Assembly (NCBI RefSeq): GCF_020748465.1
Contig: NZ_JAHZMP010000001.1
Location: forward strand, 124,001 to 188,000
DNA from: Terrisporobacter mayombei
Lineage (GTDB): Bacteria; Bacillota; Clostridia; Peptostreptococcales; Peptostreptococcaceae
Direction of reading: 5' to 3'
DNA: 64,000 bases
Shown: positions 23,951 to 62,851 of the stretch, one piece after another
How positions within the stretch are numbered: the stretch's first letter is position 1
How the letters are laid out: every line of letters starts with the position of its first letter
The notes under the pieces: generated by a model
The model's input: the letters and a program-made list of their open reading frames with translations, nothing else
Databases searched by the model: none
Told to the model about the DNA's origin: nothing
Made by a program: the position numbers and the translations under genes

Positions 23951-25201
23951 TTACATATTTATTACTTCGTATCTAAATCCTGTTTCTTTCATTAAATCTA
24001 AGTATGGAATTGGATTAAAGTACTCTGGTGAAAATACTCCTTCACCCTTCCAAATTCCTTTAGCAATAAGTTCTATAGTAAGAGCTGCACCAAATCCTGT
24101 TTGAGCTACTACTGCTTGCATACCCCAATCTTTTATCGATTGTTTATTTTCAAATGGTTGATATATGAATATTTCTTTTTTCTTTCCATCTTTTATACCT
24201 ATACAATGAACTCCAACAAGCATCATACCTGTCATTTCATCACCTATATCTTTTGGTTGTGGTGCACATGCTGCAACTACATCTCTTGGCACAACTTTTA
24301 CTCCACCTACGTCAACTTGATGTATACTTCTAAGACCTAATGAGTCTATTACTTTTAGTGCATTTATCAAAGCTGGATCTAAAGCTATTTTGAAAGTAGC
24401 TTTTTTAAGTCCATATTTACTTAAATATCTTTGCATAGTAACTACTTCTTCATGTTCTACTTTTATTAAAGTATTTTCTCCCACACCTTCAGGCATGATA
24501 AATGTTTCTTCTCCACAAAAAGCATCTTCCACTATAAATCCGTCCTTGTCTTTGTCATACTCCACATTTGGATTCATAACTTCATCTAAAATAGTCCATA
24601 CGTTAAATCCAAATGTTATATCATTTTCTTTAGCACCTGGTATTTCTAAGTTTCCACCATCTTTTATATGCACTTCATATAGTTCATCAAATTCATACTC
24701 TGCAGCATATTTTGCAAATACATTTACTACACCTGGGTCTATACCCATACATATACAAGCCATTTGATTTTTATTTTCCCAGTTTTCATGTCTATCAAAA
24801 TTGTACTTCGTCATAGGTTCTATATAACTATTTTCTATACCTATACCAAATTTAGGGTTATCCATAGGTACTGACCAAGTTCCCATACTTCCGTAATTTG
24901 TTCCACCCTCATAAGCAGCATCAAATATTTGGTTACTTACAAATGGTGCCGCAGCATCCATTACAAAATCTATATTATACTCTTTAATTAATTCAATCAT
25001 CTCATTTTTATTTTTAGCATCAACTTGAACTGCCTTATAATTTTCTCTTTCCTTTAAATTTTCTATTACTTCTTTAGCTCTACCTAGATTATAATCAGCT
25101 ACTAAAACAAATTCTAACCACTCTCTATAATTTTCTCTACTTTGCAGTATTCTTAATATTGATTCTCCTACTGCTCCTGATCCTACTAACATCATTCTCA
25201 T
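23951..25201 (-). CDS. Saccharopine dehydrogenase-family oxidoreductase under glycine riboswitch control
   Basis: 416 residues with an N-terminal Rossmann motif (MMLVGSGAVGESILRIL) and a GTNYGSMGTW segment near 100, continuing into a saccharopine-dehydrogenase-like catalytic domain (CMGIDPGVVNVFAKYAAEY, HCIGIKDGKKKEIFIYQ). Homologues include Lys9-type saccharopine reductase and carboxynorspermidine dehydrogenase. The leader carries a complete tandem glycine riboswitch ending in a terminator 70 bases upstream, which is not a usual partner for this family. That suggests the substrate or product is tied to glycine or to amino-acid overflow. Monocistronic; GGGAG lies 11 bases before the ATG. Confidence 0.85.
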   Translation of the reverse strand: MRMMLVGSGAVGESILRILQSRENYREWLEFVLVADYNLGRAKEVIENLKERENYKAVQVDAKNKNEMIELIKEYNIDFVMDAAAPFVSNQIFDAAYEGGTNYGSMGTWSVPMDNPKFGIGIENSYIEPMTKYNFDRHENWENKNQMACICMGIDPGVVNVFAKYAAEYEFDELYEVHIKDGGNLEIPGAKENDITFGFNVWTILDEVMNPNVEYDKDKDGFIVEDAFCGEETFIMPEGVGENTLIKVEHEEVVTMQRYLSKYGLKKATFKIALDPALINALKVIDSLGLRSIHQVDVGGVKVVPRDVVAACAPQPKDIGDEMTGMMLVGVHCIGIKDGKKKEIFIYQPFENKQSIKDWGMQAVVAQTGFGAALTIELIAKGIWKGEGVFSPEYFNPIPYLDLMKETGFRYEVINM

Positions 25202-25270
25202 AATAATTTTTATCTCCCTTATTTAAATTTATAAATATACATTTATACATAAATATGATTTTTGAAAATG

Positions 25271-25476
25271 AAAAAGGACAGAGTAATAAGCATACTAAAA
25301 TTAAGTATCTTATTACTCTGTCCTTTTGCCAGTTGGTTATAGCCACGTAGGCGACGGTATCCGTTCTCTCCAAAGCTTCGTCAAATAATCTTCCTTTTGC
25401 CTGTCAGTTTCAAAAAAGATTAAGATAAATTCTTTTTTTTGCTTCTTCGGCCTTACATTTAAGTAATGTCTAAGAT
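25271..25476 (-). promoter_or_regulatory. Tandem glycine riboswitch with terminator
   Basis: Minus strand. Aptamer 1 (25476-25384) is closed by AATCTT/AAGATT and has GCCGAAGAAGCAA and GAAACTGACAGGCAAAAGG, the class core. Aptamer 2 (about 25393-25281) follows directly: GACGAAGCTTTGGAGAG, a CGGATACCG hairpin, GTGG and CTGGCAAAAGGACAGAG. Its P1 is CTTTG/CAGAG. The 3' P1 strand is also the 5' arm of a terminator, GGACAGAGTAATAAG paired with CTTATTACTCTGTCC and followed by TTTTT (25271-25324). Glycine binding should prevent termination. Layout and linker match the well-known gcvT tandem switch; aptamer 2 is compact. Confidence 0.9.
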
Positions 25477-25582
25477 TATTATCATCCGATCATATTTATT
25501 TTACTATTATATTTTATAATATATATTTTCATTGTCAATATATAATTGGGATTGCTCTTTAAATTATGTATCTTACACATAT

Positions 25583-28462: not shown

Positions 28463-28802
28463 TAAGTAAATCAGATAATCGCGGGTAGAGATTTTCTCTA
28501 CACGAGGAAAGTCGGAGCTCCACAGAGCAGGGTGCTAGGTAACGCCTAGTGGGAGTGATCCTAAGGAAAGTGCAACAGAAAACAACCGCCACTTTTGTGG
28601 TAAGGATGAAAAGGCGAGGTAAGAGCTCACCGTTTCTTCAGTGACGAAGAAAGCCGTGTAAACCCCACCCGGAGCAAGTCCAAGTTAGGATGAAAAAAGA
28701 TGCTGCTCGCATCTTCCAATTGGTAGGACGCTTGAGCTTATTGGTGACAATAAGTCTAGAAAGATGATTATCTAATACAGAACTCCGCTTATAGACTTGC
28801 TT
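28463..28802 (+). ncRNA. rnpB: RNase P RNA, Firmicute (class B) type
   Basis: Conserved blocks are in order: GAGGAAAGTCGGAGCTC near the 5' side, GTGCAACAGAAA and AACAACCGCC, GAAAGCCGTGTAAACCCCACC, GGAGCAAGTCCAAG, and the 3' block ATACAGAACTCCGCTTATAGAC. The ends AAGTAAATC and GACTTGCTT pair as P1. It is the catalytic RNA that trims tRNA 5' ends. A strong terminator follows. Ends are set from the P1 pairing, so they may be off by a few bases. Confidence 0.96.
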
Positions 28803-28822
28803 ATTCTAATCTATATGAAATT

Positions 28823-62690: not shown

Positions 62691-62718
62691 TGACATAGTT
62701 TTTGAAAAATAATATACT
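62691..62718 (+). promoter_or_regulatory. Sigma-A promoter of the adenine riboswitch-add transcript
   Basis: TTGACA and TATACT with a 16-base spacer, a near-consensus match ending 12 bases before the aptamer. Confidence 0.7.
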
Positions 62719-62730
62719 TAGTAGAAATAT

Positions 62731-62851
62731 ATATTTCGTATAACCTCAATAATATGGCTTGAGGGTCTCTACCAGAAACCAATAATTTCTGATTACGAAG
62801 AATGCTTACTTTAATTTAGTAAGCATTCTTTGCAATCAGAAATTTTTTTTA
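62731..62851 (+). promoter_or_regulatory. Adenine-type purine riboswitch with terminator
   Basis: The aptamer (62731-62800) has the P1 arms TTCGTA/TACGAA, the conserved core TATAACCTCAATAATATGG, then GGGTCTCTACCAGAAACC, and ends in TTCTGATTACGAAG. The specificity base in GAT-T-ACG is U (C in guanine switches), so adenine is expected. The terminator (62783-62851) pairs AAATTTCTGATT with AATCAGAAATTT and AAGAATGCTTAC with GTAAGCATTCTT, then a run of eight T. It shares its 5' arm with P3 and P1, so ligand binding should prevent termination and switch the gene on. Confidence 0.95.

Follow-up and report, generated by a model that had tools for sequence, protein, structure and literature searches.

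The window studied here, i.e. the whole stretch of 64,000 nucleotides of Terrisporobacter mayombei DNA that was analysed, carries on its minus strand a 176-nt tandem riboswitch (25489-25314) consisting of two aptamers and followed by an intrinsic terminator, with one gene located 112 nt downstream of the RNA. This gene (25201-23951, minus strand) is preceded by the ribosome-binding site AGGGAG (25214..25219, minus strand, read from the sequence) and codes for a 416-aa protein of the saccharopine dehydrogenase family. On the basis of Pfam and NCBIfam profiles, an AlphaFold model and active-site columns, we describe it as a putative NAD-type enzyme similar to carboxyspermidine/carboxynorspermidine dehydrogenase (CASDH). 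A consensus scan found a promoter-like site, TTGACA-16-TAAAAT, 22 nt upstream of the RNA (25511..25538, minus strand, 11 of 12 positions), which is only suggestive, as the stretch is AT-rich and comparable matches are about equally frequent in shuffled sequences.

The best Rfam match of the RNA in cmscan, full length (1-177) and supported by covariation, was RF03166 (glycine-GGAnGA) and not RF00504 (glycine), with 170.5 bits and an E-value of 1.2e-37, the gathering score of RF03166 being 110 bits. The initial annotation, which placed a tandem glycine switch and its terminator directly upstream of a single saccharopine-dehydrogenase-family gene, was thus right about the arrangement, while its assignment to the ordinary glycine class had to be given up; here 'glycine riboswitch' is the name of an architecture and implies no ligand. 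Variant glycine riboswitches were reportedly described by Weinberg et al. in 2017, and we take RF03166 to be a family derived from that work. According to the Rfam structure line and our alignment, aptamer 1 with the leader/linker P0 (kink-turn region) occupies 25379..25489 and aptamer 2, whose P3b is reduced to a small hairpin, 25316..25375, both on the minus strand. Compensatory changes were noticed at 23 of the 37 consensus pairs in an alignment of 24 homologous RNAs.

Expression platform and predicted direction of switching

The expression platform is an intrinsic terminator hairpin with a U run (approximately 25327-25272, minus strand), which folds at -32.8 kcal/mol (z -9.9), with none of 200 shuffled sequences folding as well. 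Sequence and folds indicate that the 3' strand of P1 of aptamer 2, GGACAGAG (25316..25323, minus strand), belongs also to the 5' arm of this terminator. In the window, and likewise at L021, L022 and L052, the whole P1 strand falls inside the arm of the terminator; at L025 only part of it does. Because the GGACAGAG strand is common to both structures, P1 and the terminator exclude each other, and we predict from the sequence that the riboswitch is an ON switch, the same switching logic being known for gcvT of B. subtilis (PMC5666159). Ligand binding would let P1 of aptamer 2 form with the GGACAGAG strand; with this strand occupied, the terminator would not fold and RNA polymerase would continue into the dehydrogenase gene (antitermination). 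At L024, L033, L034 and L047 the platforms are shorter and have no obvious strong terminator, and these switches may act on translation.

At six loci (L025, L028, L029, L032, L035 and L044) a short shared segment resembling CATATTCGGG-AAGATG is found between the terminator and the ribosome-binding site, some 40-70 nt upstream of the start codon. As a second RNA element it is a doubtful candidate: at most of these loci it folds no better than shuffled sequences.

The window contains other structured RNAs as well: on the plus strand an RNase P RNA (28463-28807) and a purine riboswitch (62716-62815), and on the minus strand four c-di-GMP-II riboswitches (3196-3465 and 3869-4146). The latter form two near-identical tandem pairs, with scores of 80.8 and 76.3 each occurring twice, which suggests a recent duplication.

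Ligand pockets of the variant RNA

In the glycine riboswitch of V. cholerae the carboxyl group of the ligand is contacted by U81 and the amino group by G69, beside the A70-U80 pair (PMC12060979). These contacts rest on structures in which the orientation of glycine is disputed: the cited cryo-EM work summarises the pocket from earlier crystallography and argues for the amino group being oriented differently (PMC12060979). We transferred the pocket positions, in V. cholerae numbering, by aligning the motif CCGAAG-A-A-G...C-U-U-U-C-A-G-G, this mapping being our own. In aptamer 1 of the window U80-U81 is changed to G-A (25404..25405, minus strand), while the equivalent of G69, the amino-group contact, is kept (25445, minus strand); in aptamer 2 the equivalent of U81 is A (25333, minus strand). 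Corresponding changes run through the variant set. Position U80 of aptamer 1 is a purine in all 24 variant RNAs, the U81 equivalent is A in 18, C in three and G in three of them in aptamer 1 and A in every one in aptamer 2, so that a U is kept at this place in none of the 24, in either aptamer. The G69 equivalent is retained in both aptamers of the set, and the P3b arm of aptamer 2 is shortened. An amino contact kept together with a carboxylate contact lost agrees with an amine ligand.

Glycine itself was rejected as the ligand on the strength of these altered pockets and of a passage in a review, according to which variants of this riboswitch kind reject glycine. Double mutation of the glycine pockets in B. 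subtilis abolishes glycine control (PMC5666159). The suggestion of the initial annotation that glycine is the signal or the substrate is therefore not upheld. Canonical RF00504 riboswitches, whose aptamers retain UCUCAGG or CUUUCAGG, do occur in the same genome, in front of two grd (glycine reductase) operons, an AGCS symporter and a transporter gene of the folT family. Glycine sensing is thus covered elsewhere in the genome. The RNA of the window is probably not a glycine sensor. Our literature search returned no ligand for RF03166, which appears to be an orphan riboswitch family.

Two of the canonical arrangements deserve a separate remark. In the window's own genome two adjoining glycine reductase gene sets (L096, 1-7078) each have their own canonical glycine riboswitch. 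The S component of a folate-family ECF transporter (TIGR04518, 144.8 bits) stands behind a canonical tandem glycine riboswitch in this genome (L095) and in a congener (L098, genome G005); it is an unusual target for a glycine switch, which would make sense if glycine cleavage needs folate.

The dehydrogenase, its RNA and its genomic neighbours

A protein search with one genome per species (84,980 species) gave relatives of the gene at 34 loci, the closest named one coming from a Terrisporobacter MAG (gene 86% identical), and RF03166 lay directly upstream in 20 of the 34, with 123-175 bits. These loci were selected by gene, and the test was repeated by RNA in 397 genomes of the family of one relative. 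There RF03166 passed the cut-off in 10 genomes: nine of the RNAs stand before the dehydrogenase gene (one of them at a contig end) and one before a remnant of it, while a close form of the gene without RF03166 occurs in one genome (Fisher p = 1.6e-16, an optimistic value, since the genomes are related). The initial annotation had made its proposal depend on conservation of the pair and had seen in the RNA a clue to the function of the gene; the pairing turned out to be strongly conserved and near-exclusive. In the remnant (L080, 1501-1768) RF03166 is fused directly to the last ~30 codons, i.e. to the C-terminal end, of the dehydrogenase, an internal deletion having taken out the terminator together with the bulk of the gene.

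RF03166 matches of at least 115 bits precede the dehydrogenase or its remnant, and not gcv, grd or glycine/alanine transport genes; the weaker ones, from about 112 bits downwards, belong to canonical glycine switches, such as the one before gcvT at L004. The family is rare, being over the cut-off in one of 391 sampled Clostridia; the exact core motif of aptamer 2 was met in one of 398 genomes across the phylum, that of the window alone, and a search of viral contigs for the RF03166 core motif gave none. A literature search, whose scope excluded Weinberg et al. 2017, returned no paper linking the RNA with this gene family.

Two Pfam domains of the protein are over their cut-offs (PF03435 Sacchrp_dh_NADP, 50.1 bits; PF16653 Sacchrp_dh_C, 71.1 bits), and NCBIfam NF043000 is hit with 144.4 bits, below its equivalog cut-off of 800. 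The closest solved sequences are CASDHs. The AlphaFold model (pLDDT 90.5) is likewise nearest to a CASDH, 8deb (Z 50.2, rmsd 2.1 over 391 residues), and ranks CASDHs (Z 45-50) before lysine dehydrogenase (36.6), homospermidine synthase (30-32) and saccharopine reductases (25-29). For BfCASDH the residues His228-Glu229-Glu230 are proposed to be catalytic and Glu188 to hold aspartate semialdehyde, which CASDH chemistry employs, and saccharopine and lysine dehydrogenases are without this HEE triad (PMC10413350). The triad and the Glu188 equivalent are invariant in all 38 clade members and in three CASDHs. A true saccharopine dehydrogenase was rejected on the structure ranking and the presence of the triad, and homospermidine synthase on its lower structural likeness and the lack of a sequence match at E 0.001, though the enzyme may conceivably still have that activity. 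The residues binding the NADP phosphate in BfCASDH, Ser34/Arg35/Thr36, are replaced by an invariant Asp36, then mostly Tyr or Phe (also Cys or Ile), then mostly Asp. In Rossmann folds a single acidic residue of this kind usually signals a preference for NAD, which is a rule of thumb, and the sequence predicts an NAD-type cofactor preference here. On the substrate side Glu of CASDH is replaced by Trp202 and Arg by Asp206, and Arg306-Asp307 are clade-specific and invariant; these two may accommodate a carboxylate, in which case an amine resembling an amino acid would be the better candidate. The best explanation is that the enzyme represents a separate, NAD(H)-linked branch within the CASDH lineage, and not a saccharopine dehydrogenase.

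We also considered the enzyme as the CASDH partner in spermidine synthesis. The partner decarboxylase (CASDC) is over or near the cut-off in four of 38 genomes and absent from the other 34, that of the window included, a count which may be diluted by two congeners without a checked gene copy. Where CASDC is present (L067-L069), a separate CASDH, ~25% identical to the dehydrogenase, stands beside it. Spermidine synthase passes its cut-off in seven of the 38 genomes, among them the window's. With CASDC and spermidine synthase mostly absent, this role was rejected.

At nine loci genes of potABCD type lie beside the dehydrogenase. The order potA-potB-potC-potD-dehydrogenase is found at L023, L030, L031 and L053, and dehydrogenase-potD-PII-potA-potB-potC at L024 and L049; potB-potC are upstream with other genes between at L048 and L051, and potD is divergent at L082. 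By our own rough estimate a pot cluster would lie this near to a gene picked at random in ~1% of genomes, so nine loci, or about four independent arrangements, far exceed what chance would give. PotD of L049 scores 218 bits against that of E. coli. At L024 RF03166 is followed by the whole set on one strand with intergenic gaps below 15 nt, and the riboswitch would thus drive both importer and enzyme there. The linkage is restricted to these nine loci, and pot genes were not seen in the neighbourhood of the window's own gene. PotABCD-type transporters carry further substrates besides polyamines. The neighbourhood points to an amine or polyamine-like compound, and away from the enzyme for glycine overflow proposed by the initial annotation.

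Within the dehydrogenase-pot operons the gene of a P-II-like nitrogen regulator occupies 6451-6789 at L024 and 5669-6010 at L049. At L040 a carbon-nitrogen hydrolase with weak likeness to N-carbamoylputrescine amidase (5268-6137) begins 16 nt after the dehydrogenase.

Candidate ligands and relation to known systems

The explanation which we prefer, by a narrow balance of judgement, is that the variant RNA senses an amine other than glycine and acts as an antitermination ON switch, and that the NAD(H)-linked enzyme of the CASDH branch oxidises either that amine or a derivative. The glycine-GGAnGA class would have abandoned glycine and now sense some other small amine-bearing compound; the enzyme would most likely oxidise this compound or a derivative, an amine or polyamine-like molecule, which in relatives would be imported by the PotABCD-type transporter encoded beside the dehydrogenase or in the same operon. 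A single operon uniting an ON switch, an NAD-type enzyme and an importer is in keeping with catabolism that is induced by its substrate, an imported amine, and from this we infer a catabolic direction of the enzyme. The ligand is probably polyamine-like and probably the substrate of its own dehydrogenase. More tentatively, as a possibility that we hold to be open to considerable doubt, RF03166 may be a separate class sensing an amine without the carboxylate contact of glycine (a polyamine or a carboxylated polyamine), which in Firmicutes of gut and soil would govern a hitherto undescribed pathway, induced by its substrate, for importing and oxidising such a compound by means of the NAD-linked CASDH branch.

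The invariant R306-D307 and W202, specific to the clade and standing in place of other CASDH residues, also suit an enzyme acting on an amino-acid conjugate instead of a polyamine, with another amino acid or derivative (N-substituted glycine, a diamino acid or an amino-acid semialdehyde) as the ligand. A 33% identical relative lies between amino-acid permease genes (L054), and CASDH itself uses aspartate semialdehyde (PMC10413350). We take this reading seriously and still find it rather doubtful, as the transporter genes adjoining within the clade are of PotABCD type and not amino-acid permeases, and the pocket of the RNA has lost its carboxylate contact. Aspartate semialdehyde figures again if the enzyme is biosynthetic, joining it with an amine to give a carboxy-polyamine, with the switch turned ON when the amine precursor accumulates. 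Such a role, favoured by the invariant HEE triad with the Glu proposed for the semialdehyde and by CASDHs being the closest structures (Z 45-50), is unlikely in our opinion, because 34 of 38 genomes have no decarboxylase to take up the product, the cofactor site looks NAD-type and the switch of L024 would drive an importer too.

A glycine riboswitch after all, with an enzyme handling glycine or a glycine overflow product, is very improbable. It would account for the tandem architecture, the leader-linker interaction, an ON platform as in gcvT switches and the retained G69 contact, but is opposed by the loss of the carboxylate-contact U from both aptamers in all 24 RNAs, by the glycine rejection stated in the review passage, by the B. 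subtilis double-pocket mutant (PMC5666159) and by the canonical glycine switches elsewhere in the genome. Both altered pockets and the truncated P3b might be the marks of a leader which binds no ligand and is decaying or constitutive; 23 of 37 pairs upheld by compensatory change, core positions invariant across distant species, and RNA and gene travelling together make this hardly credible.

The RNA family is already known; what this analysis contributes is an unbiased measurement of its near-exclusive link to one gene, a new assignment for the enzyme and the operon that includes the transporter. The transporter link and the enzyme reassignment make the ligand of RF03166 testable, and the one-gene association, the PotABCD-type importer operon, the predicted ON direction and the predicted cofactor together yield a short list of ligands. 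Solving the ligand would give the riboswitch class its name and would show what the enzymes labelled 'saccharopine dehydrogenase' in databases do in this family.

Within glycine-GGAnGA (RF03166) the RNA of the window is an ordinary member, sharing the tandem architecture and the altered pockets, and we found no feature distinguishing it. With the canonical tandem glycine riboswitch (RF00504) it has in common two aptamers, leader-linker pairing, a P1/terminator ON platform and the G69 equivalent, and differs from it in the U81 equivalent lost from both aptamers, the truncated P3b of aptamer 2, and J1/2 of aptamer 1, which is of GGAGAG type in RF00504 and CUAGAC here. The enzyme shares with CASDH (NF043000; 8deb, 8h52) the fold, the His-Glu-Glu triad and the E188 equivalent, whereas identity is ~25%, Asp36 stands for Ser-Arg-Thr, other substrate-side residues are present and the genome is usually without CASDC. 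The spermidine riboswitch, a variant of SAM-I (PMC10853860), is alike in being a variant of a common class whose ligand has changed to a polyamine, and unlike in its derivation from SAM-I, its control of polyamine synthesis genes and its unrelated RNA.
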